Source: a virus
Reading direction: 5' to 3' (one strand)
Virus record (IMG/VR): IMGVR_UViG_3300020200_000064
Coordinates: 1 to 39,761 of that record
Length of the DNA: 39,761 nt
Part shown: one piece after another, positions 6,016 to 26,032 of the stretch
How positions within the stretch are numbered: the first letter of the stretch is position 1
How the letters are laid out: the number at the start of each line of letters is the position of its first letter
Position numbers and translations under genes: made by a program
The notes under the pieces: generated by a model
Databases searched by the model: none
The model's input: the letters and a program-made list of their open reading frames with translations, nothing else
What the model was told of the DNA's origin: nothing

Positions 6016-6363
6016 TTATTTTTTACGTGAACGCGTTGCTTTTTTGGCAGAGCCCGCGTCAACTGAATCAGCGTTAACAACCGGTTCAGTTGTTTTGTTT
6101 TCAGTAGATGTTTCAGCTGGATTAACTGTTAATTTTCTAATTGCCTTTGCAATCAATTCAGCTTCGTCTAAATTATAGGCGCCTCGGCCTTGTGCGTGGT
6201 TAGCTGCTGCAATTAGAGTAACTACTGCATGCTCGCCAGTCAGTGTCTTCAGAAAGATCTCATAGTCTTCTCTATTTTGATAACTGATTGCTGACAGAAG
6301 AGTAACTTTTGGCAACTCTTGAGTTGGCTGTTTCTCAGATTGTGCCGGTGCTTGGTTTTCCAT
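6016..6363 (-). CDS. 115-residue protein of unknown function between gp32 and RNase H
   Basis: I do not recognise a family. The first 20 residues are Gln/Pro/Glu-rich and probably disordered. The middle (about 20-80) looks like a compact helical domain containing LLSAISYQNREDYEIFLKTL and AYNLDEAELIAKAIRKL. The tail (82-115) is low-complexity and ends in the basic KKATRSRKK. It lies 2 bases upstream of the RNase H gene and 24 bases after gp32. In T4 the same interval holds 59 (helicase loader), 33 (late transcription co-activator, 112 residues) and dsbA, so one of those roles is possible by position. No sequence motif confirms this. Start at ATG 6363. Confidence 0.75.
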   Translation of the reverse strand: MENQAPAQSEKQPTQELPKVTLLSAISYQNREDYEIFLKTLTGEHAVVTLIAAANHAQGRGAYNLDEAELIAKAIRKLTVNPAETSTENKTTEPVVNADSVDAGSAKKATRSRKK

Positions 6364-6387
6364 TTATATCGATGGTTTTTTTAATTA

Positions 6388-7437: not shown

Positions 7438-7493
7438 TGTTCTTAAAGATTTAATTTATAGAATTGTACTACTTATATGCTAAATGGTTTTAA

Positions 7494-7524
7494 ACAAAAA
7501 GAGGCGAGTTAATTAAAACTCACC
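7494..7524 (-). terminator. Intrinsic terminator after the H1-like gene
   Basis: On the minus strand GGTGAGTT, loop TTAATT, AACTCGCC forms an 8-position stem with one mismatch, followed by TCTTTTTG. It separates the H1-like gene from gp32. Confidence 0.7.
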
Positions 7525-7548
7525 CCTATGTTAACTTTATGAAAGAGT

Positions 7549-7737
7549 TTATTTTGTCGCGGTTGCTCTAGCTTCTTGAATATGCTTGCGACCCTCTTGG
7601 CTAAGAGTTTTAATATCTTGTAGCACCTTTCTAGCTCTAGTTCCAGCTGACTTATTTCCTTTTTCGTAAAATTTAACAGTTTCTTCTTCTAGAGAAGCAA
7701 CTGCCGCTTTCAAGCTTGATAACCATTCAGGAGTCAT
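7549..7737 (-). CDS. Histone H1-like (Hc1-type) DNA-binding protein
   Basis: A 62-residue basic protein matching the short histone H1/Hc1-like family common in Bacteroidota: a helical N-terminus, then VKFYEKGNKSAGTRARKVLQDIKTLSQEGRKHIQEAR (21-57), whose KFYEKGNK.AGTR.RK..QD.K.L.QE.R core is characteristic. Such proteins bind DNA without strong sequence preference and compact it. In a phage it could help condense phage DNA, displace host nucleoid proteins, or alter host transcription. It starts at ATG 7737 and has its own downstream terminator. Family identity is fairly secure; the role is inferred. It is one of the main pointers to a Bacteroidota host. Confidence 0.85.
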   Translation of the reverse strand: MTPEWLSSLKAAVASLEEETVKFYEKGNKSAGTRARKVLQDIKTLSQEGRKHIQEARATATK

Positions 7738-7807
7738 ACTTTATAGATTTTTTAAATATTATACCAAAGGTCTAAATAAAGTTTTACCTGGTGTGCTAGA
7801 ATTGCAC

Positions 7808-8572
7808 TTAGTCACGGCTTTTCTTTATGCTAGTCGCAAGTTCAATAAGTCTAGTCATTGCACGTGACTGCTGAGACTTAACCCAGTGTGCAACTTTCTT
7901 AGTTATGCACCATTTAATTACGCTATTTACCGTATTGCCAGGCGAGTCCATTGAAGTTAGGTCTTCTTGGTCAAAATACCACCGCTTACTTTCTTTATAA
8001 TCAAAGCCAAAAATTGAGTTGTTTTTCCCTGAGTACTCAACAAAGATGTTAATTTCATAGTCGTCAGGGACCTCCTGTAGACCCAGTGTGATTAGCCTTT
8101 CAGTATCTTCTGGAATTCCATGAAATACTATGTCAATATACACCTCAGTGTCTAGTGTGTGGTCGACTCCAAGATCATCAAGTTCTTCAGAGTATTCAGA
8201 ATCTGTGTACTCTAATTCAATTCCATCCAGATATGGATTAATTGTGTTAAGCGTGCCTAATTTAAAAAAGTCAGAATGCCATTTAACAATATCATCGCTC
8301 AACTTTTTTAACCAATCTGGTGAAACTGCTTCCATAATTGGCTGGTACGTATGGCCAATATATTTGACAACATCGCGCCCTATGCTTTCACAAGCAGCTG
8401 ACCTTGACGTATATGTATTTAATATAATTTGCTCACCAGTTTGATAAAATAACCCAGTCCGCCAGCCGCCACGACTCTCTTCGATAAACGAAATTTTTCC
8501 AAGAACATATAATTGAGATAGTTTGGGTTGATTATTGTATTGGTATTCAGAATATCGATTAATTGTTATCAT
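7808..8572 (-). CDS. 254-residue protein of unknown function
   Basis: Not recognised. It begins MITINRYSEYQYN. Visible features are a short beta-rich N-terminal region with paired Gly (SRGGWRTGLFY, about 34-44), an acidic stretch (ELEYTDSEYSEELDDLGVD, about 119-137), a beta-rich region ending in FGFDYKESKRWYFD (about 188-201), and a basic helical C-terminus (KWCITKKVAHWVKSQQSRAM). No signal peptide or membrane segment is seen. Its first 14 bases overlap the 3' end of the 158-residue gene upstream, which implies coupled translation. It may be an accessory or internal virion protein like its neighbours, but this is only a guess from position. Confidence 0.7.
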   Translation of the reverse strand: MITINRYSEYQYNNQPKLSQLYVLGKISFIEESRGGWRTGLFYQTGEQIILNTYTSRSAACESIGRDVVKYIGHTYQPIMEAVSPDWLKKLSDDIVKWHSDFFKLGTLNTINPYLDGIELEYTDSEYSEELDDLGVDHTLDTEVYIDIVFHGIPEDTERLITLGLQEVPDDYEINIFVEYSGKNNSIFGFDYKESKRWYFDQEDLTSMDSPGNTVNSVIKWCITKKVAHWVKSQQSRAMTRLIELATSIKKSRD

Positions 8573-9035
8573 CCTTTAACTCGTCAGATTTTGGCTTTAA
8601 AAATGTGACGTTGAGGTCTGATGTATATGGCGTGCCTGCCTCGTCGTATTCGACCTCAACTTCGGCAAGTTCTTTGTAATTTAGAGTCTTATCTCGAAGA
8701 CCTTGCTTTAATTTGAAAAAGTCTTCCTTGGACAATTCTTCTTTGCCTGAGAGACCATCTTTAAATGAATTAGCTTTATCAACTAAACTAAGATCAGTTA
8801 GCCATTTGTCTAGGTCGGCTGGTTTTATCTCATAATGCTTATACTTCTTTACTCCACCGCCGGTTGGATATTCAGCTGACCAATCTTTATCTGCTGTGAT
8901 AAAAAGTATTTTATACGACTGACTAGCATCTGCTGGTTGAGCGGTCGGCTCAGCACCTGTGGCCATTGTAACATCTGGAAGTGGCAATTCTTCTTCAAAA
9001 ACTGCCGAAAATTGTTTAAATTTTAAGATTTTCAT
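8559..9035 (-). CDS. 158-residue protein of unknown function with a leader-like N-terminus
   Basis: Not recognised. It begins MKILKFKQFSAVFEEELP, a basic-aromatic N-terminal peptide followed by acidic residues and a Pro/Ala/Thr-rich linker (about 18-38), then a folded region with SYKILFITADKDWSAEYP and a lysine-rich helical part (KEELSKEDFFKLKQGL). The N-terminal pattern resembles that of two nearby proteins (phosphatase at 3986-4573, unknown at 9253-9750) and the capsid-targeting leaders of T4 internal proteins. Its start is 22 bases after an AATAAATA motif that overlaps the end of the 46-residue ORF. The 3' end overlaps the next gene by 14 bases. Confidence 0.7.
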   Translation of the reverse strand: MKILKFKQFSAVFEEELPLPDVTMATGAEPTAQPADASQSYKILFITADKDWSAEYPTGGGVKKYKHYEIKPADLDKWLTDLSLVDKANSFKDGLSGKEELSKEDFFKLKQGLRDKTLNYKELAEVEVEYDEAGTPYTSDLNVTFLKPKSDELKDDNN

Positions 9036-9252: not shown

Positions 9253-9750
9253 TTATTGTTCTACTTTAATAATTTCAAAGTATTCACGGTGATCTTTCAT
9301 GCCTACTTCAAATCCATTTTCAAATTTACAATAATAACCGCCTATCCAGATTAAGCCTTCTTTTCGATAATCCTCACTTGCTGCAAATCTTCTATCGGTA
9401 CTTAATAACTCTTTATCTCTTTGAGTAAGATCTCTAAGAACATCAGGTGTTCCAAATACTCTTGAAGTTTGAACATAAATTTCTTTATTTTCAGGATTAT
9501 AAGATAACCAATGGTCATCTTGTTTACTTAAGTCAAATGGTGTTGTAGCAACTTTAACAAGATTAAATCTATCCCCATTGCGTGTTAAGGTAAATTCACT
9601 ACCAGTTAAGAAAGCTGGCTTTCCGTCTGAGTTTTTAATTTCTTTGAGACAGCCTTCAAACTTATCTGTTGGTTTTACCGTTATAGAAAACGGAGCGACT
9701 GGCTCATTTTCATTAGTAAAGGCTTCAAATGATTCAATTACGTATTTCAT
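9253..9750 (-). CDS. 165-residue protein of unknown function with a capsid-targeting-like leader
   Basis: Not recognised. It begins MKYVIESFEAFTNENEP, which resembles the N-terminal leader of T4 internal proteins (MKTYQEF followed by a Glu cleavage site). The rest is a mixed alpha/beta domain with several aromatic residues: KFEGCLKEIKNSDGKPAFL (about 30-48), HWLSYNPENKEIYVQTSRV (about 80-98), and EGLIWIGGYYCKFENGFEVG (about 131-150) near the C-terminus. It forms its own transcription unit: GATAAATA is 6 bases before the ATG, the nrdA terminator is upstream and a perfect hairpin terminator follows. A co-packaged internal virion protein is possible but unproven. Confidence 0.75.
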   Translation of the reverse strand: MKYVIESFEAFTNENEPVAPFSITVKPTDKFEGCLKEIKNSDGKPAFLTGSEFTLTRNGDRFNLVKVATTPFDLSKQDDHWLSYNPENKEIYVQTSRVFGTPDVLRDLTQRDKELLSTDRRFAASEDYRKEGLIWIGGYYCKFENGFEVGMKDHREYFEIIKVEQ

Positions 9751-9830: not shown

Positions 9831-12248
9831 TTATGATCCACATGCAATACAATCTTTTGGATTGTCAAGCGAACATGTGATATTTTCAGGAGGTTCATCG
9901 CTTTGTATTAATTGAACTGACTCTGATGCTTTAAGTTTTGAAATATCTACTCCTAGTGATTGAATTGCATCATTAGCTGATTCAGTTCGTAAGTAATACA
10001 TACCAGTTTTTAAACCTGCTCGCCAAGAGTAAAAGTGTGCAGATGTTAATTTTGCAGTATTGACGTCTCTAATGAATAAATTTAATGACTGGGATTGACA
10101 GATAAATTTACCACGAGCAGCTGACATGTCAATGATATCCTTTTGCTTAACTTCCCAAACTGTTTTATAGACTTCTCTAAGTTCCTGTGGAATTTCAGCT
10201 ATATTTTGAATAGATCCATTTCCTTTAATGATTTGCATTCTCATTTGATCTGACCATAAGTCTAGCAAGATAAGATCGTTGATTAAGTGCTTATTTACTA
10301 GAATAAATTCTCCAGATAGAGTTCTACGCGTATAGATGTTTGAAGTAAATGGTTCAAATGCCTCAGTATTACCCATAATTTGAGCAGTAGACGCGGTCGG
10401 CATTGGCGCAAGTAATAAAGAATTTCTAGCACCATGCTTTATTACTGTTTTTCTTAATTTGGCCCAATCCCAACGACCCGATAACTGATTGTCTGCAAAG
10501 CCCCATAAGTTAAATTGAAATTCTCCTGCACTCAATGGAGAGCCGCTAAACGAAGAATATGCGCCTTCTTTCTTAGCTAGGTCTACTGAAGCCGTCATTG
10601 CTGCAAAATAGATTGTTTCAAAAACATCAGCATTTAGCTGTTGAGCCTCTTGGCTAGTAAACGGCAATCCCATTATTGCAAATAGATCAGCTAATCCTTG
10701 AATACCAATGCCTATCGGTCGATGTTTCATGTTTGATGCTCGAGTCTCTTCAGTAGGATAGAAGTTGACATCGATCACCTGATTAAGATTTAGTGTTGTT
10801 TGATATGCAACATCATATAGTGATTGGAAATCATATTCGGCTGTCTGTTTTTTTAATTTACCGATTTTCTTACCTAGAGTAACAAATTGATTTACTGGAA
10901 TTGAAGCAAGATTACATACAGCTTGTTCATCTTTAGACGTGTATTCTAAAATTTCTGTGCACAGGTTTGAAGACTTAATTGTGCCTATATTTTTTTGATT
11001 TGATTTCTTATTTGCTGCATCCTTATATAGAATATATGGCGTACCGGTTTCTATTTGAGATTCCAATACTTTTTGCCAAATTTGACGAGCCTTAAGCGTT
11101 TGCCGACCATTTCCTTCTGCCTCAAGTCTCGTGTAATTTTTTTCAAATTCTTCGCCATACATTTCCCATAGCGGAACATCTATCTCGGATGGACAGAACA
11201 GCGTCCAATTTCCATCTTCCTCTACTCTTTGCATGAATAGATCTGGTGTCCATAGTGCCAAAAATAAGTCTCGCGTTCTGCGCTCTTCTTTACCGTGGTT
11301 TTTGCGAAGATCTAACCAATCTTCAATGTCTGCGTGCCATGGCTCAAGGTATATTGCAAACGAGCCCTTTCTTTTTCCGCCGCCTTGATCGACATAACGC
11401 GCAGTCTCATTAAATACTCTTAGCATTGGTACAATTCCATTCGACGTTCCGTTTGTGCCTCTAATATATGAACCGGTTGCGCGAACATTATGAATGGCTA
11501 AGCCTACGCCGCCTGCATTCTGAGAAATTGCAGCAACATCACTTAATGTTTTATAGATGCCCTTAATTGAATCGTCATCCATCGTTAATAAGAAACAGCT
11601 TGACAGTTGAGGGCGTTTGGTGCCTGCATTAAATAAGGTCGGCGTAGCATGCGTCATCTTATGAGTCGAAAGAAGCTCATACGTCTTTAATACATTTTGA
11701 ATATTGCTTCCCCAGATGCCGACCGCTACTCTCATATAAAGATGCTGTGGAGTTTCTGCTACTTGCCCGTATGTCTTTAATAAGTAACTTCTCTCTAGTG
11801 TTTTAAATCCAAAATAGTCAAAATTTAGGTCACGATCATGAATGATGGCCTCATTTAGAGTATTTTTGTTCTTCATTACGACTCCATATGTCTCGTCCGA
11901 AATTAATCCGGCTGGCTTTTTCGTTTTAGGATCAATATACGTATATAGATGCTCAACCGTATCACTGAATGATTTCTGGGTAATCTTATGCAGTCTAGTG
12001 ATAGCTATTCTTGCCCCCAAAATTGAATAATCTGGGTGAACGTATGTTAATGCTGCAGCCGTTTCAGCAGCAAGCGTATCTAATTCATTTGAACTAATCC
12101 CATCATAGATTCCTGCAACGACTTTTGTTGCAACTTCCATCGAATCAACAAAATCCGTATCCAAACTGTATGTTTGTTTTTTGATTCGGTTTGTGATCTT
12201 ATCTAATCGTAACGTTTCTAAGCGGCCGTCTCTCTTTAATACTTTCAT
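9831..12248 (-). CDS. nrdA: Ribonucleotide reductase class Ia, large (alpha) subunit
   Basis: It reduces ribonucleoside diphosphates to deoxyribonucleoside diphosphates with NrdB and supplies dNTPs for phage replication. The 805-residue protein is full length. It has an N-terminal ATP-cone (MKVLKRDGRLETLRLDKITNRI), the first redox Cys C218 in QLSSCF, the catalytic triad N428-C430-E432 in SSNLCTEILEY, the second redox Cys C445 in AVCNLASIPVNQF, the MPTASTAQIMGN phosphate-binding loop, and a C-terminal shuttle pair C800/C803 in the terminal DCIACGS. An intact ATP-cone predicts dATP inhibition. It lies 24 bases after nrdB in one unit and ends at a terminator. Start ATG 12248, preceded by an A-run. 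Confidence 0.97.
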   Translation of the reverse strand: MKVLKRDGRLETLRLDKITNRIKKQTYSLDTDFVDSMEVATKVVAGIYDGISSNELDTLAAETAAALTYVHPDYSILGARIAITRLHKITQKSFSDTVEHLYTYIDPKTKKPAGLISDETYGVVMKNKNTLNEAIIHDRDLNFDYFGFKTLERSYLLKTYGQVAETPQHLYMRVAVGIWGSNIQNVLKTYELLSTHKMTHATPTLFNAGTKRPQLSSCFLLTMDDDSIKGIYKTLSDVAAISQNAGGVGLAIHNVRATGSYIRGTNGTSNGIVPMLRVFNETARYVDQGGGKRKGSFAIYLEPWHADIEDWLDLRKNHGKEERRTRDLFLALWTPDLFMQRVEEDGNWTLFCPSEIDVPLWEMYGEEFEKNYTRLEAEGNGRQTLKARQIWQKVLESQIETGTPYILYKDAANKKSNQKNIGTIKSSNLCTEILEYTSKDEQAVCNLASIPVNQFVTLGKKIGKLKKQTAEYDFQSLYDVAYQTTLNLNQVIDVNFYPTEETRASNMKHRPIGIGIQGLADLFAIMGLPFTSQEAQQLNADVFETIYFAAMTASVDLAKKEGAYSSFSGSPLSAGEFQFNLWGFADNQLSGRWDWAKLRKTVIKHGARNSLLLAPMPTASTAQIMGNTEAFEPFTSNIYTRRTLSGEFILVNKHLINDLILLDLWSDQMRMQIIKGNGSIQNIAEIPQELREVYKTVWEVKQKDIIDMSAARGKFICQSQSLNLFIRDVNTAKLTSAHFYSWRAGLKTGMYYLRTESANDAIQSLGVDISKLKASESVQLIQSDEPPENITCSLDNPKDCIACGS

Positions 12249-12272
12249 TTTTTTTCTCTACTAGTTTTTAGG

Positions 12273-13235
12273 TTAAAAATCCGCATCAGTTGAAAATACT
12301 GAGTCATTACCAGTTTTGACACCGGCTTTTTGATATTCACCAACTCTTTTTTCAAAGAAATTCGTTTTGCCTTTAAGTGCAATATTAACCATAAAATCAA
12401 ATGGATTTGCTGAGTTAAAGACTTTTTGGCAACCTAGGTCAACTAATAGTCGATCCGCAACGAATTCTAAATATTGTTTCATTAACTCTGCGTTCATACC
12501 AATCAATCTAACTGGTAGTGATTCAGTAATAAATTCCTTTTCGATTTCAAGAGCAGATAAGATAATCTCTTTAATTCTATCTTTTGGAACTGGATTAATT
12601 AAGTGGTTATTATGAAGGTGTACTGCAAAATCACAGTGGGAACCTTCATCTCTAGAAATAAGTTCATTTGAAAAACTTAAACCTGGCATTAGCCCTCGCT
12701 TTTTAAGCCAAAAAATAGAACAAAATGAACCGGAAAAAAAGATTCCCTCAACCGCAGCAAAAGCAATCAATCTTTCTTGAAATGGCGATTGCTTGATCCA
12801 TCGCAGCGCCCAATCGGCTTTCTTTTTAACTGCGTCAATTGTGTCGATTGCATTGAATAGTGTTGCTTTTTCTTCTGGATCAGCAATATATGTGTCTATA
12901 AGTAGAGAATATGTTTCTGAGTGAATGTTTTCCATCATGATTTGGAAACCGTAATAGAATTTAGCTTCTGGGTATTGAACTTCTCTAACAAAATTTTCTG
13001 CCAGGTTTTCATTAACAATACCATCAGACGCGGCAAAGAACGCTAGTATGTTTTTAATAAAGAACCGCTCGTCGTCTGTTAATTTTGTGCGCCAATCTAC
13101 CAAATCGGCAGATAGATCAATTTCTTCAGCTGTCCAAAAGGAAGCTTCTGCTTTTTTATAAAAATCCCACAAGTCGTGGTGCTGGATCGGAAAGATGACG
13201 AATCTGTTTGGATTCTCTACTAAAATAGGCTCCAT
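12273..13235 (-). CDS. nrdB: Ribonucleotide reductase class Ia, small (beta) subunit
   Basis: It holds the di-iron centre and tyrosyl radical that activate NrdA. The 320-residue protein has all the expected ligands: D71 in [12 protein letters not shown]102 and H105 in MMENIHSE, radical Tyr Y109 in [10 protein letters not shown], a further Glu in [11 protein letters not shown], and Glu/His in [10 protein letters not shown]. The C-terminus STDADF matches the peptide that docks into the large subunit. The sequence SDGIVNENL and [10 protein letters not shown] is strikingly like eukaryotic R2 rather than E. coli NrdB; this branch also occurs in Bacteroidota. It is upstream of nrdA and downstream of a 47-residue ORF. 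Start ATG 13235 follows an A/T-rich run without a Shine-Dalgarno. Confidence 0.97.
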
Positions 13236-13431: not shown

Positions 13432-14628
13432 CTAGTCTTGTAAAAAATCAAACTTAATATTGTTACGGATTGCGTCTACCTTATTGATTCTCAACAATCC
13501 AGAGTTTGGAATTTTTGTGCGACCCTTTAGATGAAGTACATCTATCTTAAAGGTATCATCCACGTTTGAAATAAAGACTGTTATTGAAAACTCGTTCTTA
13601 TTAAATTTAAATTTGTGCTCCTTTCCTTCAGCTTGTAATTTTAGAGATTGCCACGTCACTTTTTCTGGATTAATTAAATCTGGAGAAGTAGTTAAGATTA
13701 TTCGAGGCTCTCCCTTCTTCATAATAATGTCTTTAATGTAGAACTCGATTTGCATACCTGACTTATAATCAGCACAAGCCTTTTGATAGTTTGCAAATTC
13801 AGTCTTATGTAAAAGACCTGTGAAATAATTTTGGAATTCGATAAACATTCCAAATTCATATGGATTATTAGTTAATTCGCCGATATATTTTTCGCCAAAT
13901 GAAAGTTCGTGAATTCTTTCAGGTAAAGTATGTTTAATGTACTTTTTATAAGACACAATAAATAGATCATTTGTTACATCGTAATTTTCAATCATTACTG
14001 GAATATCTTTATTCAAATAATCATTGAAATCTCTAATTACGTTAGCTGCCGCATGCGAACCTGGTAAGAAACATTTTACGCCGCTTTTGTAAGTACATAG
14101 ATACCCGCCTTTCACTAGGGAATTGACTTTAATATAGAACCATTGATCTGTTTTTTGGAATTCTTCTAGCTCCTCTCTGTGTGAGATGGCCGCACAACGA
14201 CGCTCAGATGCTAGGAACTCGCCATTCTCGTTTTTATAAACAACTACTTTAAATTCGCAATCAGCTTCACCGTGAATTAAAAAAGCTGGCTCTTGAGAAA
14301 ATTCTCTAAATGGTATGTATAGACTCGTTAGCGTGATCTCGTCTTGTGCAATAATCTGTTTTGCTTCAAAGTCGACTTGTCTAGCAACAACTTTACAGAT
14401 CTGGCCGATAGTTAGGTCTTTTGATGAAACTGGCAAATTTCTATCTGAATAATTTGCGTAAATATTGTATAGCTCCTGAGCGTACGGTTCTTTGCACAAG
14501 ATCTTAACGCCTGCTAGTTTATCAGCGGCTGTCATTACAACTGATGTATTATACTTAGTTAGTGGAGTATTTAGTAGAATCTCCGCGGCCTGATCGGCAT
14601 CTAATGCGAATCTAATTGAGTTGCTCAT
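13432..14628 (-). CDS. S1-domain RNA-binding protein (ribosomal protein S1-like)
   Basis: A 398-residue protein with what look like three S1 (OB-fold) RNA-binding repeats. The first, at about 72-145, starts LTIGQICKVVARQVD and ends ENGEFLASERRC. The second, at 163-228, contains WFYIKVNSLVKGGYLCTYKSG and CFLPGSHAA, the S1 hallmark GG...FLP.S. The third, at 244-314, has GEKYIGELTN, YEFGMFIEFQ, GLLHKTEF and a final PRIILTTS. S1 proteins bring mRNA to the 30S subunit. In Bacteroidota, where Shine-Dalgarno pairing is weak, a phage S1-like protein could favour phage mRNAs; this role is inferred. No catalytic domain is seen, so an RNase such as PNPase or RNase E is unlikely. A 19-bp dyad lies just upstream of ATG 14628. 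Confidence 0.78.
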   Translation of the reverse strand: MSNSIRFALDADQAAEILLNTPLTKYNTSVVMTAADKLAGVKILCKEPYAQELYNIYANYSDRNLPVSSKDLTIGQICKVVARQVDFEAKQIIAQDEITLTSLYIPFREFSQEPAFLIHGEADCEFKVVVYKNENGEFLASERRCAAISHREELEEFQKTDQWFYIKVNSLVKGGYLCTYKSGVKCFLPGSHAAANVIRDFNDYLNKDIPVMIENYDVTNDLFIVSYKKYIKHTLPERIHELSFGEKYIGELTNNPYEFGMFIEFQNYFTGLLHKTEFANYQKACADYKSGMQIEFYIKDIIMKKGEPRIILTTSPDLINPEKVTWQSLKLQAEGKEHKFKFNKNEFSITVFISNVDDTFKIDVLHLKGRTKIPNSGLLRINKVDAIRNNIKFDFLQD

Positions 14629-14677: not shown

Positions 14678-17600
14678 TTAAATTCTTGGTGGAGGAACAA
14701 ATAAACTAGGTAAACTGCTAACTCCATACATACCTGGCAATTTAGTATAAAAAATCAATGTGCCTAATGACATGATTGTTGATTTATGTAAAATTTCATC
14801 CAAGAAAATTGCAAATAGTGGATTCTTTCTAGTAAGTCTTTCCCAAGGCGGCAGATCATCTTGATTAAAAATAGGATGAGCTAATCTTGCTAATTGAACG
14901 CCTGGCGCGCCAGTTGCGCAAAGGACAGCTGTTCCTAAATATGCAATCTCTTTTAAATATTTTTCCAAATTTTCAAGAATTGGTAGAGCAACTGCTAAAA
15001 TGACTGGGTAAACGTCTAAATTAATCAGATTGACCTTTAGGCCTTTGCCTAAGGCATCCTTTATTTTTATCTTGATTAGCTTGATTATTGCAGTTAGCGG
15101 GTTAGAAACGTCTAAAATACTTAGCGATTCCCAAGAACCACTAGGCATTAGACTTAGAATTGGCCTAACGATTGCCTCGATCGGTCCAAGAATTGAGTCT
15201 AGAGCAGATAGGATTAATTTCTTTAAGAAAGATATTATGTCAGGTGAAGAAAGTAGAGCAAAGTATTTTAAAATATCTAATGGCAGATCTGGAAAAACTG
15301 GCAGCTTTATCTTTTTACCATTTGGCAAGGTTATCTCAACCTGATTAGATTTAATTTTTTTAAGTTTAACGATGCCAAACTCTCCACAGTCAATTTGATT
15401 AATTACATCGTCTGCTGATAATTCAGAATTTATACCTGACCCGTTCTTTTTATTGAATAGATCTGCTAGCATTTTAAAGATTGCAGTAATTAGTGCAGCT
15501 AGTGCAAGCTTTAGCAATGGCTTAATTATTGCATCTATTGGGATCTTAATTTGAATAGGTAAAATTGGTCTAGCTGGGTTGGGCGCCTCCGGTAAAGAAA
15601 TTGCGGATAGAATCGGTACTATTAATGAAGAGACTAACGCGATCGGATTGACTAATTCTGGGATATTAATATCTGGAATCATTGAAATAATTGAATCAAA
15701 TCCGCTTTTAATAACATCAGCGCTAACCTGTTTAACTCCACCAAATAGACTAGCCAAATCGTCTTTTGATAAGCCTTCGATTAAGGCAGCAGATAGACTC
15801 GTAAAAACTGACAATATTGCGAGTACCTCTGGTGGAACTCCCTTAAATAGAGATTCCGCTGGTATTTCACAGCACGGTTTAGTTGGATCAAAAACTGAAA
15901 TCTTTGGCGGAGAGGCTAGTGCAATTGAAGTAAACGATAGGCTCTTTACAATTAACTCTTGAAATCTATCATCGCCCTTTGACATTTCTTCTGCTTGGGC
16001 TTTTGATTTTGCTTCACTGGTGTCTATGCTCTGTTTTTTACCTTTTATATAATCGACACACGATGCAGACATTTCCGTTAATGCTTTCTTTAATTTTGAA
16101 ACGTCTTCATCTTTTTCTAGATCATAACTTGCTTGATCGGTGAACTTTTTTGGATCAAGTTTTTTTGCAATTCGTTTAATCTTCTTAACTAGATTAGTAT
16201 CGCTTTGATTTGAAAATTTACCTTTGCTAGCAAGTTCAAGCAGATCAATGATACTTGTAATTGCCGCTGGTAATTTAGGATTTAGTTTAGAAGGATCATC
16301 TGGATATGTGATTGTGCCTAGGTTAATTGAATCGATTATTGAATTAACTTCAGCAATCATCGTATCAATTTTTTCTTGCAAAAAGGCTGGATCGATTGCC
16401 CTAGACGCAGTTTTTAATTTTCTTCGGCGCTCAGAATTTGGTTCGAGCTTGGCTTTAGCTAAAGCAGAATCGCGAGACTCTTTTGTTTTATCTTTAACTT
16501 TTTGTAAATTCTCAGTTGCAATATCGCCAAGCGAGTCTAACTGCTTTGTTATGCCTGTTCGAATTTTAAAAACAAGCCGGTCAAAATCCTGAAGCGGCGT
16601 AGTCTCAGCTGTCTCTAGCGCAAATTCATTTTCGCTTTTTAGATCATTAATTAAATTAGCAATGGTCAATTCGCCTACATCACCAGGTGCAGGCATCCCA
16701 TTGGGTAATTTTACTTCAATAGGTTTGCCCTGTGCAATATCAATTGCTATTTTTGCAAGGCGTACACCCTTTGACGCACTTGCTGAAAGTTTTAGAGGTA
16801 TGCTAAATGCTCCTTTGATTGGTAAGCCAGAATACGGACCAGAAAGACCGAGTGGATTTTGCGAAGTTGGGCTTGAATCAAACTCGAAGCCAATATTAAT
16901 TTGATTTAGCAGAATTAAAAAGGGTAGATTCGGGGCCAGGATCATGTACTTATTCCCATCCGGAGCAATATAAAAGATGTAAATTGATGGGATTGGAATT
17001 GGAATTGGTGATGGAAAAGTTATTGGTACGCTAATCATAGGTACAATGATTCCAAGAGGTGATGAAATAACAGATAGCACCTTCCATCTTTGTGGCAGGG
17101 TTAAGATTATTGGTCCTGGAAAAGCTGGAATAACACCGTTCACTGGATAATATCTAAATAATGGAGATTTGATATCTGGAATTGGTAAGATCCCAAATTT
17201 AGTCATTTCTTCAGCAAAATACTTCCAATAACAAAAGGTGGTTGGATCAGGCAAGCTCGCATTAGTCCCGTTCAGTGTTTTTATGCCAAACGGATCAGTT
17301 CCTTTTTTCTTTAAGGCTTCAGCTTCACAATTATTTTTAACTTGAGCGGTCTTAAAGCATGGGATTGCTGCAATTTTGGCAGCAATTTTATCTGGATCAA
17401 CAGAATACTCCTTTATTAATTGGTCAAGGCTTCCAATTTCTGATTGTAATTCAACCTTTTTTTGTTTAACTTTTTCAGCAGAATTCTTAAACACTAGCAA
17501 AGCATTCGAGAGAGCTGAATTAGTTGGTTGATATGTAATATTATTATAGGTAGTTTGCTGACTAATGCTTTCGTCTAACCGATTTAGCCGAATAACGGTA

Positions 17601-18766
17601 GAGGCTTCTCTTCGAGCAAGCTCCTTTATTTTAACAATTTGTGCAGCAATTGTGGCTGGATAATTTACGGTTTTTTCAGCTTCAATTCGCTCAGGTAATT
17701 CAGTTTTTATGTTATCATAAAATGCTTCATACTTTGCAAGATCTTTAATAAAAAAGGTGAGATTGTCTTCTTTAATTGTTTTTGGCGCATCTGGATTCTT
17801 TTTTAAAGTATCATCAACTTGATCTGGGCTGGTAGTGAGGCCTCTTTCGTCTAGTGTAAATAGGCTTTGAATTGGGGTTCTAAGTATCCGATATAGTCCA
17901 CGGTATGAATCTGCGCCCTCGTATAGAAAACAGTCGGCTTCATTACTCTTATTCTGATCCTTTTCGGTTTTTATTTCGCCGGTCTGCACATTGATCAGTG
18001 ATGTAATATTAGTAAGTTTGACAAAGGAGCCGACATCATCGAGAACATTTACGTTTTTAAAGTATTGACTTTTTCGAATTGGAATATTATAAACTGTTTG
18101 TTCGTAGTGTATTTCGCCAAGAGCCAGTTCAAAAAACTTGAGTTCAAATGCATAGGTTTTATCTATGTAAACTGGATATATTTTACCGCTTATTTTTTGA
18201 AAAACTCCTCTTAATAATGGAATAAACAGATCATTTTTATTACCGCTGCCTGAGATTGGTTCGATATTTTTTAATTTTTGAGAAACTTGAGTCGCTGCTT
18301 CCTTTTCAAGCTCTTTCTTTTTGGCAGTTAACGCAGAAATTGTGGCAAGAGTAGGTCTAGTCTTTTTACGTTCTTCATCCAATTTAGAAATAACTGACAT
18401 TTTTTCAGCATTAATTGGATTGGTCGCTTGCGAAACTTGTAGAAAGAAGTTAAGTCGCTCATCAAAATAGGTCTCAACAAGGCTTAAGTTATCTAAATAT
18501 TCAATTAGTCTAGCTCTAACTTTAGAAACTTCACTTACTTTTTTAACATTTGTTTGTTCAGATTCTACTATTTTTTGAGCTTCTTTAAGAGCGGCTGGTA
18601 AACAACTCTCTTTAAAAGTGGGTTCAGCTGGCGGCGGCGTAGATTTTGGCTTTATTGCTGGCGGTAGGCAAGCGCGAACTTTTGCTAAATCCTCATCTGA
18701 AAACGTAGCTGGCGAAATTTCGCCACATTTAATCTTTAAAATTAAGTCTCTAAAATCTTGAGCCAC
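14678..18766 (-). CDS. Giant 1362-residue protein of unknown function, probably virion-associated
   Basis: Not recognised. The N-terminal 460 residues are charged, with long helical or coiled-coil stretches (for example around 60-170 and 370-460) and a PKSTPPPAEP linker at about 40. A Pro/Ile-rich hydrophobic stretch (SVPITFPSPIPIPIPSIYIF) lies near 580-600. A second charged helical region (about 700-960) is followed by a C-terminal part with many amphipathic or hydrophobic helices separated by prolines (PEAPNPARPILPIQIKIPID, then IIKPLLKLALAALITAIFKM near 1075-1100). No signal peptide is seen. It starts at GTG 18766, 13 bases after a GATAAAATA motif and just past the groEL terminator. Size and composition suggest a virion, tape-measure-like or membrane-interacting protein. 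It lies among minus-strand metabolism genes, away from the tail cluster. Confidence 0.85.
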   Translation of the reverse strand: MAQDFRDLILKIKCGEISPATFSDEDLAKVRACLPPAIKPKSTPPPAEPTFKESCLPAALKEAQKIVESEQTNVKKVSEVSKVRARLIEYLDNLSLVETYFDERLNFFLQVSQATNPINAEKMSVISKLDEERKKTRPTLATISALTAKKKELEKEAATQVSQKLKNIEPISGSGNKNDLFIPLLRGVFQKISGKIYPVYIDKTYAFELKFFELALGEIHYEQTVYNIPIRKSQYFKNVNVLDDVGSFVKLTNITSLINVQTGEIKTEKDQNKSNEADCFLYEGADSYRGLYRILRTPIQSLFTLDERGLTTSPDQVDDTLKKNPDAPKTIKEDNLTFFIKDLAKYEAFYDNIKTELPERIEAEKTVNYPATIAAQIVKIKELARREASTVIRLNRLDESISQQTTYNNITYQPTNSALSNALLVFKNSAEKVKQKKVELQSEIGSLDQLIKEYSVDPDKIAAKIAAIPCFKTAQVKNNCEAEALKKKGTDPFGIKTLNGTNASLPDPTTFCYWKYFAEEMTKFGILPIPDIKSPLFRYYPVNGVIPAFPGPIILTLPQRWKVLSVISSPLGIIVPMISVPITFPSPIPIPIPSIYIFYIAPDGNKYMILAPNLPFLILLNQINIGFEFDSSPTSQNPLGLSGPYSGLPIKGAFSIPLKLSASASKGVRLAKIAIDIAQGKPIEVKLPNGMPAPGDVGELTIANLINDLKSENEFALETAETTPLQDFDRLVFKIRTGITKQLDSLGDIATENLQKVKDKTKESRDSALAKAKLEPNSERRRKLKTASRAIDPAFLQEKIDTMIAEVNSIIDSINLGTITYPDDPSKLNPKLPAAITSIIDLLELASKGKFSNQSDTNLVKKIKRIAKKLDPKKFTDQASYDLEKDEDVSKLKKALTEMSASCVDYIKGKKQSIDTSEAKSKAQAEEMSKGDDRFQELIVKSLSFTSIALASPPKISVFDPTKPCCEIPAESLFKGVPPEVLAILSVFTSLSAALIEGLSKDDLASLFGGVKQVSADVIKSGFDSIISMIPDINIPELVNPIALVSSLIVPILSAISLPEAPNPARPILPIQIKIPIDAIIKPLLKLALAALITAIFKMLADLFNKKNGSGINSELSADDVINQIDCGEFGIVKLKKIKSNQVEITLPNGKKIKLPVFPDLPLDILKYFALLSSPDIISFLKKLILSALDSILGPIEAIVRPILSLMPSGSWESLSILDVSNPLTAIIKLIKIKIKDALGKGLKVNLINLDVYPVILAVALPILENLEKYLKEIAYLGTAVLCATGAPGVQLARLAHPIFNQDDLPPWERLTRKNPLFAIFLDEILHKSTIMSLGTLIFYTKLPGMYGVSSLPSLFVPPPRI

Positions 18767-18779
18767 GAAATCTGATCTT

Positions 18780-18788
18780 TATTTTATC
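18780..18788 (-). promoter_or_regulatory. Promoter-like GATAAAATA before the 1362-residue gene
   Basis: GATAGATAAAATAAAG on the minus strand, 13 bases before GTG 18766 and just downstream of the groEL terminator. Same core as the motif at 9205-9213. Confidence 0.4.
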
Positions 18789-18799
18789 TATCAGCCCGC

Positions 18800-18837
18800 T
18801 AAAAATGAAGACCGCCCAGATTTTAACCTGAGCGGTC
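18800..18837 (-). terminator. Intrinsic terminator after groEL
   Basis: On the minus strand GACCGCTCAG, loop GTTAAAAT, CTGGGCGGTC: a 10-position GC-rich stem with one G-T pair, followed by TTCATTTTTAG. It separates groEL from the 1362-residue gene. Confidence 0.8.
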
Positions 18838-18857: not shown

Positions 18858-20453
18858 TTAACCTTGATTTTGGTCAGCAGGCGGCTGCACCATTAGACAA
18901 TCTGTTGTGATCAACAAGGAGGCAATAGATACGGCATTCTCTAATGCGCATCTAGTAACTTTGACAGGGTCAATAATTCCTGCCTCAATCATGTTGACGT
19001 ATTCTTCAGTTTTTGCGTTAAACCCTATTCCGCTAGCATCCGCTATCTCAATATTATTCCAAATAACTTCAGAATTTAGGCCAGCATTCTGAATAATTAT
19101 TGAAAACGGCTGCTTACACGCAGAAACTAGAACATCTTTACCTAATTGTTGGTCCTTGTTTTCAAGAGTTAAGGTTGCATCAACTTGTCGAGAAGCTTCA
19201 TAAAGTGCAAGACCTCCGCCTGGGATAATTCCCTCTAAAACTGCCGCTCTAGTTGCGCCAAGGGCATCATCGATTCGATCAGCTTTTTCTTTTGCTTCGA
19301 TTTCACTAACTGCTCCAATCTTGATAATTGCAACGCCGCCTTGTAGCTTTGATAATCTCTCTTTTAGCATGATTTTAGCAGACTCGTTTGTTGATGATTC
19401 AATTTGACCCTTAATTTCAGCAATTAACTCTTCGATTTTAGAAGAATCGCCAGCTCCGCCAACAATAGTTGTAGAGTCAGCACTAACCGTCACGCGGTCA
19501 CAGCTACCTAATACTTGCGTGGCAATGGTTTCTTTTAGGATCATGCCCTCTTTTTCTGATACGGTTTTTGCGCCGGTAACTGTTGCTATATCATCTAGTC
19601 TAAGCTTGCGCTGGTCTCCAAAACCTGGAGCCTTTACTGCAGCGGCTTTGATTGTTCCACGCAAACGGTTAACAATTAAAGTATTTAGTGCTTCGCCATC
19701 AACTCCATCGCTAATAATAAGCAAAGGCCGATTTGATTTATTTGAAAATTCTAGGTACTGTATAATATCGGTCATTGATGAAATCTTACCATCATAGAGC
19801 AAGATTAGTGGCATTTCAAACTCAACTAAATTCTTTTCATTATTATTGACTAAGTATGGGGAAAGGTATCCGTTATTAAATTGCATACCTTCAACAATTT
19901 CAACAAAGGTTTCAGCTGTGCGGCTTTCAGCAACAGTAATAATTCCGTCAAGCCCAACTGCTTCCATCGCGTCTGTAATGATTTGCCCAATTTCCTCGTC
20001 GTTATTTGCGGAAATTGTTGCGACCTGTTTTACTTTTTCTAGGCTTTCGATTTTTTGGCTCTTGGCAATAATCGATTCAATGACTGCCTTTGCTGCTTTT
20101 TCAATACCTTTCTTAAGTTCCATTGGATGAGCTCCTTGCGAAACCATGCGATTTCCCTCTGTAAAAATTGCCTGTGAGAGAACCGTTGCGGTTGTAGTAC
20201 CGTCACCAGCTTCGATTGAAACCTTTTGTGCAACCTGCTTAATTAGTTGAGCTCCAACGTTTTCAAGATAATCAGCTAAATCTACTTCACGAGCAACAGT
20301 TACCCCGTCTTTGGTGATTGCCACTCCATTATCTCTAGCGATGATTACATTTCTACCCCTTGGGCCTAGCGTTATCTTAACTGCTTCTGCTAATTTGTTA
20401 ATTCCTTCTGCAAGCTTTTGTCTAGCATTAGCTCTAAAATGCATATCTTTCAA
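18858..20453 (-). CDS. groEL: GroEL-type chaperonin (60 kDa)
   Basis: A full-length group I chaperonin subunit of 531 residues that folds proteins in an ATP-driven cage with GroES. Visible hallmarks are KITLGPRGRNVII near the N-terminus, the ATP-site GDGTTTATVL, GAHPMELKKGIEKA, the apical-domain VEGMQFNNGYLSPYLVNN, KAPGFGDQRK, LSKLQGGVAIIKIGA, DDALGATRAAVLEG with the catalytic Asp, and PGGGLALYEAS. The Gly/Met-rich tail usual in bacterial GroEL is missing; it ends ADQNQG. The start is TTG 20453, giving MKDMHFRANAR, because KD..F..NAR aligns with E. coli KDVKFGNDAR. ATG 20444 is the alternative. A phage with both GroEL and GroES is unusual; large virion proteins are likely clients (inferred). 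Confidence 0.97.
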   Translation of the reverse strand: MKDMHFRANARQKLAEGINKLAEAVKITLGPRGRNVIIARDNGVAITKDGVTVAREVDLADYLENVGAQLIKQVAQKVSIEAGDGTTTATVLSQAIFTEGNRMVSQGAHPMELKKGIEKAAKAVIESIIAKSQKIESLEKVKQVATISANNDEEIGQIITDAMEAVGLDGIITVAESRTAETFVEIVEGMQFNNGYLSPYLVNNNEKNLVEFEMPLILLYDGKISSMTDIIQYLEFSNKSNRPLLIISDGVDGEALNTLIVNRLRGTIKAAAVKAPGFGDQRKLRLDDIATVTGAKTVSEKEGMILKETIATQVLGSCDRVTVSADSTTIVGGAGDSSKIEELIAEIKGQIESSTNESAKIMLKERLSKLQGGVAIIKIGAVSEIEAKEKADRIDDALGATRAAVLEGIIPGGGLALYEASRQVDATLTLENKDQQLGKDVLVSACKQPFSIIIQNAGLNSEVIWNNIEIADASGIGFNAKTEEYVNMIEAGIIDPVKVTRCALENAVSIASLLITTDCLMVQPPADQNQG

Positions 20454-22258: not shown

Positions 22259-22678
22259 GTGTCCAAAGCAAAAACCAGCAAGTACTACATTAATAATAAA
22301 GAGTTCACAAATGAGATCGTTCGATGTAAACACGGTCTTATAAACGAAGAGACAGGATATCAGCACACAGCCGGCGAACTTTCGCCTAGAGCAATCGAAT
22401 ACTTTATTATTCTTGCAAATAGAGCAATCCTTAAACTCAAATTTTCAAACCCGTTAGACAAAGAGGACTGTATTCAGTCCGCCCTCTTAGACCTTTTACG
22501 ATATTGGCGTAACTTTAACGAAGAAAAGTCAAATAACGCATTTGCCTACTTTACACAAATTGCAAAAAATGGATACGCTAAAGAATACAAAAAGATTTAC
22601 AAGCACATCGGTAAGGGTGAAAAAATTGAATTTATATCGCTAAGTCAATCGCCTGACAGCGAGATCTATACAATTTGA
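22259..22678 (+). CDS. 55: gp55-like late transcription sigma factor
   Basis: A short sigma factor that would direct host RNA polymerase to phage late promoters. The 139-residue protein resembles T4 gp55 and sigma region 2: LSPRAIEYFIILANRAI, then DKEDCIQSALLDLLRYW (68-84), then the diagnostic FNEEKSNNAFAYFTQIAKNGYAKEYKK (86-112), where T4 has FD.EKS.NPFAYFTQI. It is shorter than T4 gp55 (185 residues) and I do not see a clear C-terminal sliding-clamp-binding motif. It starts at GTG 22259, 2 bases after the RuvC-like stop, so the two are probably co-translated. It lies directly upstream of the tail gene run, some of which carry TATAAATA-like motifs that it would recognise. Confidence 0.85.
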   Translation: MSKAKTSKYYINNKEFTNEIVRCKHGLINEETGYQHTAGELSPRAIEYFIILANRAILKLKFSNPLDKEDCIQSALLDLLRYWRNFNEEKSNNAFAYFTQIAKNGYAKEYKKIYKHIGKGEKIEFISLSQSPDSEIYTI

Positions 22679-22726: not shown

Positions 22727-25700
22727 ATGAACATTAATAACCTTAAATTTTTTGACAAAAATGGCGAAGCTTATAACTTGGAGTTAGTAACTTCGGGTTC
22801 TTCGAAATATTGGTACGGCTCGGACTATTTTTTACCGGTTTCAACTGCCCTATATGATGTATCAAACCTCTTTGTTTTGGAAGAAACAAACGGTTCATAC
22901 CATTTTCCAAATCTAGGAACAAATGGCAAATTTATTGCTCGTTGGAAATTGCAAAAGGACTCGACAAACTTTTTTCTATTCTCAGTCACTGCCCCAACCT
23001 CAACTGATGATAAGTCATACTTAAATAAACTAACTGAACTTAAAATTAGCGAAAGCGATTTTGGTGCAGGCTACAATTTTACAACATTAAAGTATCCGCT
23101 ACAGATAAATGTGGCATTTACTCCAGACATCGAGAGAGCATACAATCGCATCCTTGAATTATTATGGTATAATGGCTCAACTACAACAAAAGTTGCAGAA
23201 ATTGGCTTTTATGGAGAGGGAGAAGACGAAGATGAAAGATTTCAAGTGTGGTTAAGCAACTTTGGTATCAAATTTAATAGAGAAGACGCTGAAATCTTAA
23301 AAAATTACGATTTGAAGGAAGATTTACCTAACTGGCAAGAAGTAAATCAGGCTAGAAAAGAAATCCTAGTCAGTCGTGATCAAATTTATCCATATGTCGG
23401 TACATATAAGGGATTAATTAACCTTGTTAATATTCTAGGCTACCGAGACGTGCTAAAAGTCAAAGAATATTGGCAAAACGTTGAAAAATCATCACCATAT
23501 TATCAAAAATTCGCGCAAGTTGACATTACTGATATGCTGGATGATGGAATTATTCAAAATTTAGACTTGGTTAATCGAAATGCTCAAATAAAAAAGAGCG
23601 AGCGATTCGTTAAGACCGAATTCTTAGCGTTAGTTTACCAGTTTTCTCAACCGAGTGGTGAATATGACGACGACGGCCTACCAGAAGTTGAATTTACAAC
23701 TGAATTTACAGTAAATGAGATATTCTATAAGCTGAATAAGATGTCTAAAAAGCTTAAGAATGAGATTTTACCAATAAACGTCGTAATCAAGGATATTATT
23801 GGTGAATTTATCTACTTTGAAAAATTTAATTTGAGATATTGGACTGATCGAACTGATATTATTGAGACCGAAGTTAACGAGAAGTTCATAGCTGAGATTT
23901 TACAGCCAAACACTAAGACACAAGAGCTTATTATTCGAGACATAAAGGCACTTTTTCCAAAAGAAAACCACATAGCCGCCTTTCCATTTGTAACTTTTAA
24001 TATTTCACAAATCTACCCGTATCAGAATAATCAACATTATGATACAACACAAGCTCCAGTATTTGGGCAAGCAATCGAGAATTACTATATTAATGAAAAG
24101 ACCTATGAATTTAAGTACCATGGTCAACCGAATCCCTTTAAGCAAGGAGATGATGCACACGGGCAGATCGGTTGCCCAATTGTACTTCATGCAAATATTC
24201 AAGAATTAACTCTATCTGAGTTAGACGGCTCAACGTTTGACGAATTTAGAATTTCAAAAGCATTTGTTAGAGTTGCAACAACAACGAATATCGTTTTAAG
24301 CGGGTTGCAGAAAATTGATGGAGTTCAGGTAAACCTTGGCGACCGAGTCCTAGTTAAGGAACAAACAAATCCTATCCAAAATGGCATTTGGCTTGCTAGC
24401 GATTCTGCTTGGCTAAGGACTACTGAGTTTATCACTTATGTAAACTCGCTAGGCGTAATTGCTTTTGTAGATGAAGGCGATACTCTAACTGGGACAAGGT
24501 GGTATGCCGTGGATAACTTACTAGAGCAGGCAAACGTTATCCCAATCTTATTTGGTCCATATACTGCAGAAACCGTAAAGTCAATGAAGTCTCACCATAC
24601 GCTAGGTACTCTAAAATACCGAGACTCTTTTGAAACTGAGTGGATCATTGATGGTCCAAATAATTATCATTTTCAAGTTAGAGGTAAGACAACTGACTAT
24701 GCAAAATGGCCGCATATTTTACCATATGTTGGCAACTATGTAGTTGAGCTTAGAATGTATGATCTTAGCGCTGGTGTGTCAGTCGACTATTTACGATTAA
24801 AAGTAGAAGCCGAAGAGCCAAATATTACAGTTTTCACCAGAATTGAAGATAAGTTCAATTACCAATTTAGAAACTTGGACAATGTCATGATTCAAGATTT
24901 TGGAGCAAGTTCAATTTATAATGCAGCGGTAAACGTGATTGACCCAGATCCAGGATCAATTTTGCTAGATGCCAATCACTTTAGCCTATTTACATATTTA
25001 AATAATTTCGGATTAGGTAGTAGCGTATCTAGAATTGAAATTTATAATGGCACCAATTATGAACCGTTAGAAACGTCTACGCTAAAACCAGCTAAACAGT
25101 GGGGGTTAGGTCTAAACAGCGGACGCTTAACATTAGGTGATTTATCAAATGTCAGGTTAGGTTCAATGTATCACACTAGGATTGGGCGCGCAGTCTACCC
25201 AACCGATTATCTAAATGGATTTTCAATCGAGCCAACAGGCTTAATTAGTATGAAGTATGGAAACTTTCCAGAAATAACAATTCCTCCGCCATATTCATCA
25301 AATATAACACAGTTTGTAAACTACATGAATCAAGTTCCATTTCCAGGCTGGTCAAATTATACATATAAGATACTAGATAATCAGGTTAAGGCTGATGCCA
25401 AGTTTATTGATAGAAAAAATCATGCAATACTAACCTTTACTTTTCCAAATTCACTAACGGTTAAAAAGTACACATTTAGCTTTCCAACTAAAGTATATTC
25501 AGATTCAGTTATTGACTGGCTAGAAACTCAGTTTCCACTCGCGGACCGAGATTTATTATTTTTAAATGTACCGTTCGATGATCTTATTAAAGGGCTTGGC
25601 GGTACCACACAATATTGGATTGACCAAGGATTTATCAATTACTCAACTACCCAACAAACAGGTTATTTGCCTTCATATTATGACCAAAACGCATTTGACT

Positions 25701-26032
25701 TTGTTGGTTTAAAAGTATCAGACGATACAGTCATAGTTCCATTACAGAGCCCAGTTTTTGTAGTACTAAATAACATAGACTCAAAAACTGAAACTATTTG
25801 GTCATTAACCAAAAACGGCTCGGAAATTGCAAAAATTAAGGCTACCTCATATTTTACTTGGAGATTTAGCGAACCCGGCAAATACTATCTGACGGCAAGG
25901 TCAACTGACTCTTTTGGAAATGAATTTTCAACAGCCAACCCACTAATGTTTGTAAATGTCTTAACAAAGGCAGACTACGTCCAATATATCGAAAATGAAC
26001 TAAACCGGAGAAAACTTGATCTACTGAGATGA
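22727..26032 (+). CDS. Large baseplate protein, possibly gp7/P2 gpI-like, with a fibre-type insert
   Basis: An 1101-residue structural protein. At about 220-250 it reads SRDQIYPYVGTYKGLINLVNILGYRDVLKVKEYW, resembling the Y.GT..gL...l..lG motif of P2 gpI-type baseplate proteins, the counterpart of T4 gp7 (1032 residues). That suggests a wedge component. At about 510-600 is a module common in phage fibres: AFVRVATTTNIVLSGLQKIDGVQVNLGDRVLVKEQTNPIQNGIW. The rest is beta-rich, with an Ig-like stretch near the C-terminus (SPVFVVLNNIDSKTETIWSLTKNGSEI...GKYYLTARSTDSFG). No signal peptide. It starts the tail gene run after gp55. Structural role is likely; the gp7 equivalence is a hypothesis from a short motif and size. 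Confidence 0.8.
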   Translation: MNINNLKFFDKNGEAYNLELVTSGSSKYWYGSDYFLPVSTALYDVSNLFVLEETNGSYHFPNLGTNGKFIARWKLQKDSTNFFLFSVTAPTSTDDKSYLNKLTELKISESDFGAGYNFTTLKYPLQINVAFTPDIERAYNRILELLWYNGSTTTKVAEIGFYGEGEDEDERFQVWLSNFGIKFNREDAEILKNYDLKEDLPNWQEVNQARKEILVSRDQIYPYVGTYKGLINLVNILGYRDVLKVKEYWQNVEKSSPYYQKFAQVDITDMLDDGIIQNLDLVNRNAQIKKSERFVKTEFLALVYQFSQPSGEYDDDGLPEVEFTTEFTVNEIFYKLNKMSKKLKNEILPINVVIKDIIGEFIYFEKFNLRYWTDRTDIIETEVNEKFIAEILQPNTKTQELIIRDIKALFPKENHIAAFPFVTFNISQIYPYQNNQHYDTTQAPVFGQAIENYYINEKTYEFKYHGQPNPFKQGDDAHGQIGCPIVLHANIQELTLSELDGSTFDEFRISKAFVRVATTTNIVLSGLQKIDGVQVNLGDRVLVKEQTNPIQNGIWLASDSAWLRTTEFITYVNSLGVIAFVDEGDTLTGTRWYAVDNLLEQANVIPILFGPYTAETVKSMKSHHTLGTLKYRDSFETEWIIDGPNNYHFQVRGKTTDYAKWPHILPYVGNYVVELRMYDLSAGVSVDYLRLKVEAEEPNITVFTRIEDKFNYQFRNLDNVMIQDFGASSIYNAAVNVIDPDPGSILLDANHFSLFTYLNNFGLGSSVSRIEIYNGTNYEPLETSTLKPAKQWGLGLNSGRLTLGDLSNVRLGSMYHTRIGRAVYPTDYLNGFSIEPTGLISMKYGNFPEITIPPPYSSNITQFVNYMNQVPFPGWSNYTYKILDNQVKADAKFIDRKNHAILTFTFPNSLTVKKYTFSFPTKVYSDSVIDWLETQFPLADRDLLFLNVPFDDLIKGLGGTTQYWIDQGFINYSTTQQTGYLPSYYDQNAFDFVGLKVSDDTVIVPLQSPVFVVLNNIDSKTETIWSLTKNGSEIAKIKATSYFTWRFSEPGKYYLTARSTDSFGNEFSTANPLMFVNVLTKADYVQYIENELNRRKLDLLR

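Follow-up and report, generated by a model that had tools for sequence, protein, structure and literature searches.

Among the closest described systems, the 'moraphages', Bacteroidota-associated aquatic jumbo phages, possess T4-like virion genes and no recognizable tape-measure protein (PMC12619734). In T4 itself, the late promoters read TATAAAT (PMC3037559). We analyzed a 39,761-nt stretch of viral DNA (the window; IMG/VR record IMGVR_UViG_3300020200_000064), which is a 39.8-kb fragment of a T4-like contractile-tailed phage, and within it an orphan open reading frame (ORF) of 1362 aa. The orphan is a lineage-core gene of large T4-like contractile-tailed, Bacteroidota-associated phages, and a conserved late-type promoter element precedes it. 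With a probability of about 0.5, we regard its product as a late, probably virion-associated protein of the tail interior or hub, of the tape-measure or ejection type.

The orphan gene begins with a GTG codon at 18766 and ends with a stop codon at 14678, and the plus strand across it is full of stops. A first-pass annotation, made from the letters of the window alone, had placed a 1362-residue orphan at exactly these coordinates and had remarked on its size, and both observations hold: the gene lies on the minus strand, exceeds its window neighbors in size, and has no database annotation. The gene is real: homologs of 821-1718 aa are intact on contigs from many metagenomes, with the gene order kept. 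The features of the locus are as follows.

14678..18766, minus strand: orphan gene; the starts of the homologs align and, in most loci, follow the promoter element at a distance of 14-32 nt.
18778..18792, minus strand: late-promoter-like element GATAGATAAAATAAA, which precedes the orphan start by about 25 nt and lies behind the groEL terminator; conserved in relatives.
18810..18837, minus strand: groEL terminator, a hairpin of 12 pairs followed by TTCATTTTTA (z = -2.97).
18858..20453, minus strand: groEL, directly upstream of the orphan in 54/58 loci; without the late element.
13432..14628, minus strand: gene of a 398-aa S1-domain protein, directly downstream of the orphan in 55/58 loci.
22259..22678, plus strand: gene of a 139-aa sigma-70 region 2 protein, with 80-89% identity in close relatives.

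The promoter-like motif that the first-pass annotation had noticed after the groEL terminator is conserved in relatives, with the terminator stem at 18837-18810 followed by GATAGATAAAATAAA at 18792-18778; a hairpin with a T-rich stretch is also seen upstream of the orphan in relatives. In a 270-kb relative, G001, ATAAATAA occurs 78 times, and 59 of these occurrences are followed by an ORF start within 60 nt, compared with 2.7 expected. The genes preceded by it include those of the sheath, the gp6-type wedge, and a 666-aa hub/tube-cap-like protein, as well as the baseplate-cluster homolog of the window ORF 22727-26032. The orphan carries the variant ATAGATAAA in 16/16 close loci and the exact ATAAATAA in 16/23 distant loci, G018 among them, so that a late-type element, exact or with one base changed, stands before it in 32/39 loci. 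The element is found before groEL in 0/37, the exo gene in 0/35, the S1 gene in 1/39, NrdB in 1/22, SSB in 0/32, and the baseplate-cluster gene bp1101 in 8/8, the loci being related and the counts not independent events. By raw count, the motif is no more frequent in the window than chance would predict, and the evidence for the promoter is therefore positional and comparative.

Like a T4-type late gene, the orphan has a TATAAATA-like element shortly upstream of its start. Unlike its early/middle-looking neighbors, it appears to be transcribed late, and it would be expressed from its own promoter element despite early/middle surroundings. The sigma-70 region 2 protein is a candidate gp55-type late sigma factor that may read the element. 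The conservation of a late-type promoter element in the midst of an early/middle run assigns the orphan to a functional class without recourse to homology.

The early/middle-type genes that surround the orphan are those of an exonuclease, groEL, the S1 protein, ribonucleotide reductase, SSB, a second exonuclease, and groES. The wider order, exo - GroEL - orphan - S1 - (nrd) - p158 - SSB - p115 - exonuclease - GroES - p195 - sheath, with the sheath on the opposite strand, is common to close members and extends, with insertions, to most of the distant ones. The first-pass annotation had proposed a search for a conserved position in related Bacteroidota phages; in related Bacteroidota-associated phages the position proved to be conserved, GroEL lying upstream in 54 and the S1 gene downstream in 55 of the 58 loci. 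Exceptions include L092/G018, where the orphan is followed by S1 and GroEL is not adjacent, and L091/G011, where the S1 gene lies a few ORFs further on. In the divergent L070, the order is orphan, a 299-aa protein with a weak CHAP match, terminase large subunit, sheath. In G018, the orphan, the S1 gene, and a hub module (gp48/54-like, gp27-like, gp5-like) are found on one strand within 24 kb.

The slot between the S1 gene and p158 varies among relatives (L013, L005, L054, L060, L101, L107, and others): it holds class I NrdAB, a single NrdA-like protein of 858-1177 aa, or a protein of 618 aa that has no similarity to NrdA; the genes on either side remain in place. Relatives of the S1-domain protein (window 13432-14628) also occur in Lak and other huge phages, in which no orphan is detectable. 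The window also encodes GroEL/GroES, ribonucleotide reductase, SSB, and the sigma-70 region 2 protein, some gene names being our own reading of the sequences. Its tail sheath matches PHROG 34521 (E = 4e-82), and the best GenBank matches of the sheath are huge metagenomic phages, Flavobacterium phage MaF61, and Prevotella Lak phages.

The orphan family is real and previously unannotated. It comprises more than 50 homologous IMG/VR contigs at 20-57% identity, together with one contig from a Bacteroidetes metagenome-assembled genome. In IMG/VR scans, the C-terminus retrieved 30 loci, a profile built from 14 close members 41, and a profile led by distant members 68, the last set overlapping the earlier ones. 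Close relatives are 34-56% identical to the window orphan and distant ones about 20-27%; G001, G020, and the distant G018 have homologous copies of the gene, and three further records that nearly match G001 in size hold it at different positions. Lengths range from 1181 to 1718 aa except for the short L070 member (821 aa). The orphan diverges quickly, with about 33-38% identity where GroEL keeps 62-68%. Near position 13114 of L104, the gene is interrupted in frame (1171 + 200 aa), by a sequencing error or a recent inactivation, whereas the very similar gene of L103 reads through (1372 aa).

The sole deposited homolog seen was A0A6J5SX71 (BFVD/UniProt), labeled 'uncharacterized'. No relative was found by tblastn in 50,697 GenBank phage records (INPHARED), and searches of Pfam, PHROGs, and PDB sequences with several members and isolated domains gave nothing above noise. 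A profile search of 11 known phages, T4, P-SSM2, HTVC008M, RM378, Lak-B2, and huge phages included, gave no orphan match; as a control, a comparable A3 profile recovered 17/17 of the records in which the gene was known to be present. ORF71 of Flavobacterium phage MaF61 (931 aa, before the sheath) was considered as a relative and rejected: it lacks the family motifs, and the whole record is without a profile match. Standard annotation leaves this core family of uncultivated T4-like large phages blank.

In composition, the protein is as the first-pass annotation described it, with charged helical stretches alternating with hydrophobic, proline-broken segments (Pro 7.5%). Hydropathy (KD) maxima of 1.6-2.1 fall at residues 562-584, 977-1000, 1035-1061, 1075-1105, and 1243-1265; no unambiguous transmembrane helix was seen among the hydrophobic segments, nearly all of which have a proline and all of which have charges. 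C14 and C33 are invariant across the family, and C55 or its neighbor, C470, C512-Y-W, LLPxP, FRYxP, and G489/D491 are further conserved features. The strongest conservation is that of the C-terminal DDLPPWERL..N.LF..FLDE. The features of the protein are as follows.

18602..18727, minus strand: N-terminal segment with C14, C33 (both invariant), and C55 (in many distant members the cysteine is four columns later), from the family alignment.
17405..17740, minus strand: predicted long helical hairpin, residues 343-454 (AlphaFold2 model helices 181-232 and 255-292 in model numbering).
16889..17359, minus strand: most conserved central region, residues 470-626, with C470, G489-D491-P492, P506, C512-Y-W, LLPxP, FRYxP, and IPLPxxW.
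16985..17008, minus strand: PIPIPIPS at residues 587-594, a stretch whose repeat pattern is not conserved.
15452..15838, minus strand: hydrophobic, proline-broken helical region, residues 977-1105, from hydropathy and model helices.
14762..14875, minus strand: C-terminal signature P-x-x-NQDDLPPWERLT-KNPLFAIFLDE, residues 1298-1335, with the strongest family conservation.

The PIPIPIPS stretch to which the first-pass annotation had drawn attention is present, but it is ruled out as a functional repeat: relatives read VGIPLPS or lack such a stretch. AlphaFold2 modeling of residues 163-1362 with 43 alignment rows gave a pLDDT of 69 and a pTM of 0.51 (model m1930202b30a7). The model has a helical hairpin at 343-454, a beta-rich part near 560-610, helical bundles, a small beta domain at about 1124-1156, and C-terminal helices. 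The 821-aa L070 member was modeled with a pLDDT of 51. Foldseek with both models found no PDB match, and the one significant structural-library match was the uncharacterized homolog A0A6J5SX71. Structure prediction, a check that the first-pass annotation had proposed, thus matched no solved structure, and the models do not decide the function of the orphan.

A role in virion morphogenesis is probable because of the late-class element, the location near terminase and sheath in L070, and the location on the hub strand in G018. Of the first-pass proposal of a tape-measure, ejection, or internal virion protein, this part is supported; virion incorporation, a location in the tail, a tape-measure function, and a role at the membrane are what we would infer. 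We speculate that long helical hairpins and hydrophobic, proline-broken helices could occupy the tail lumen or act upon the host membrane at DNA entry, and that the C-terminal signature and the central Cys/Trp/Pro-rich domain might bind a structural partner. G001 (270,136 bases) was read whole: terminase, portal, sheath, gp6, gp27-like, and gp5-like proteins were recognized by PHROG or by comparison with LR756500, and the capsid, protease, and gp48/54-like assignments are our own reading of the sequences. Among the large ORFs of G001 scanned with PHROGs, which were not all of its ORFs, no tape-measure protein was recognized. The T4 gp29 profile (PHROG 1283) found only T4 among seven phage records searched and was absent from G001, G018, and G020. 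The orphan is the longest ORF of G001 apart from a collagen-like fiber and a 2277-aa baseplate-cluster protein. The collagen-like tail-fiber protein (41961-53162 of G001) is of 3733 aa and 29% Gly and adjoins a similar one of 870 aa.

Several points weigh against a late tail-interior or hub protein. The ATAGATAAA one-base variant was accepted after it had been seen upstream of the orphan in close relatives, which leaves the exact motif in distant loci as the independent test, and there it is absent at 7/23 (L091 has AATATATAAG; L117, L119, L123, and L126 have GTTAAATAAA). In most genomes, a long distance separates the orphan from the hub module (about 40 kb in G001), and the conserved cysteines, predicted beta domains, and high proline content of the orphan protein are unusual for a tape measure. 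It has no homology to T4 gp29 or to the LR756500 analog described below, the models are moderate or poor and match no known fold, and in divergent phages PHROGs are poor at recognizing tape-measure proteins. An assembly factor outside the virion could also be the product of a late gene. In sum, there is a good, if unproven, case for a late virion-morphogenesis role of the orphan family, as a candidate missing tail component.

A narrower form of the tail-interior proposal is that the orphan is the missing tape-measure protein in the strict sense, several copies of which would fill the tail lumen, set its length, and leave first at injection. We hold this form only tentatively. The late-type element, core distribution, and long, largely helical build with hydrophobic segments and a best-conserved C-terminus would fit it, as would the variation in length from 1181 to 1718 aa among members other than L070; no other candidate has been recognized, and the 'moraphages' have the same gap (PMC12619734). 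It is the promoter element, present in 32 of the 39 loci, that points to expression late and with the virion genes, as expected of a tape measure. Homology to a known tape-measure family, for which the first-pass annotation had suggested a search, was not found in PHROG, Pfam, or the comparison with gp29. Most genomes do not have the gene next to those of the tail tube or hub, the protein has conserved cysteines and beta domains, and the 821-aa L070 member would imply a much shorter tail. Other core late proteins compete, for example, the 512/555/755-aa family at 10928-12466 of G001. A 756-aa hydrophobic late protein of G001 was rejected as an alternative tape measure, as it was found in 2/9 relatives searched; this late-type protein (6042-8312) has hydrophobic stretches and LNE/G and VNE/G sites, possible prohead-protease cuts, and is a candidate head-packaged ejection protein. 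It is conceivable, though doubtful, that the orphan is the tape-measure or ejection protein of the whole T4-like jumbo clade, encoded away from the other tail genes and beside groEL, and that its family, with a cysteine-bearing head, a beta-rich CYW...LLPxP...RYWP core, and a DDLPPWERL tail, is unrelated to known tape measures.

It is unlikely that the orphan is a late assembly factor that is not kept in the particle, such as a tail or head morphogenesis chaperone, a scaffold, or a connector. The late element and the core distribution fit this equally, and the gene is encoded beside groEL in 54 of the 58 loci, but the protein is very large for an assembly chaperone and its hydrophobic segments would have no obvious role. 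We consider it rather improbable that the orphan is packaged in the head and enters the cell with the DNA to form a membrane channel. The late element, the hydrophobic, proline-broken helices, and the large size are consistent with this, and many proteins of the group have capsid-targeting-like N-termini; however, the N-terminus of the orphan has no F-x-x-F-L-x-E peptide before A/G, and its amphipathic stretch is merely generic and leads into the Cys motif. In close relatives, it reads xFKxLIxxIKCG, and [LIV]xE[AG] sites are only scattered. In many small proteins of the group, the N-terminus resembles the capsid-targeting peptide of T4 (F-x-x-F-[LIV]-x-E), for example, MKILKFKQFSAVFEE, MKYVIESFEAFTNE, MKRPLSFNLFLESIE, and, in a NUDIX-like protein, MKIKAFSEFLAES. 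Such starts are found in the window at 8559-9035, 9253-9750, and 3986-4573, and at loci of G001 and G018. These N-termini would suggest head-packaged, ejected enzymes.

It is improbable that the orphan depends, as a client, on GroEL of the phage itself, a client relation being among the first-pass suggestions. The correct assembly of viral particles can be the work of chaperonins (PMC5332604), and the adjacency is very strong, with GroEL directly upstream in 54 of the 58 loci. However, a terminator and a promoter element separate groEL from the orphan, and G018 (246 kb) and G011 (374 kb) hold the orphan without a GroEL match in a search that detects GroEL in five relatives. An obligate dependence on phage GroEL is therefore disfavored, and the adjacency is no proof of a client relation, with the provisos that the G018 and G011 records may be incomplete and that host GroEL could serve. 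The further first-pass idea of a membrane-active host-takeover factor, taken as an early host-takeover or membrane-active protein, fits the early/middle-type surroundings of the gene and is very improbable given a promoter element of the late rather than the early class, conserved over the family.

In comparison with known systems, A0A6J5SX71 (uncultured Caudovirales phage, 1453 aa) is a homolog with 37% identity over about 1250 columns, and its function is likewise without assignment. A hydrophobic, proline-broken orphan of 424 aa in the jumbo phage LR756500 (462 kb; L159 7445-8719) lies directly behind a gp5-like hub gene and before an S1 gene and is an analogy only: it has no detectable homology to the window orphan, its status as a homolog is unproven, and no relatives of it were found beyond one identical contig copy. 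The analogy proposed with T4 gp29 (baseplate hub subunit and tail length, PHROG 1283) is limited to a late, long protein with a tail-lumen role, whereas gp29 is of 590 aa, lies within a 27-28-29-48 cluster, and has no sequence similarity to the orphan (hhalign probability 0.3%, with no family match above noise). The likeness to T4-type late promoters lies in ATAAATAA/ATAGATAAA at 14-32 nt before the starts in most loci and in the conserved sigma-70 region 2 gene; the difference is that the consensus here is derived from position only. The 'moraphages', regarded here as another Bacteroidota jumbo-phage lineage, resemble the window group in the T4-like virion gene set, the predicted Bacteroidota hosts, and the tape-measure gap; a difference is that GroEL goes unmentioned in the text of PMC12619734. 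For that lineage, the paper reports the missing tape-measure protein as an open point, and the orphan family offers a specific candidate to fill a gap of this kind in the group studied here.

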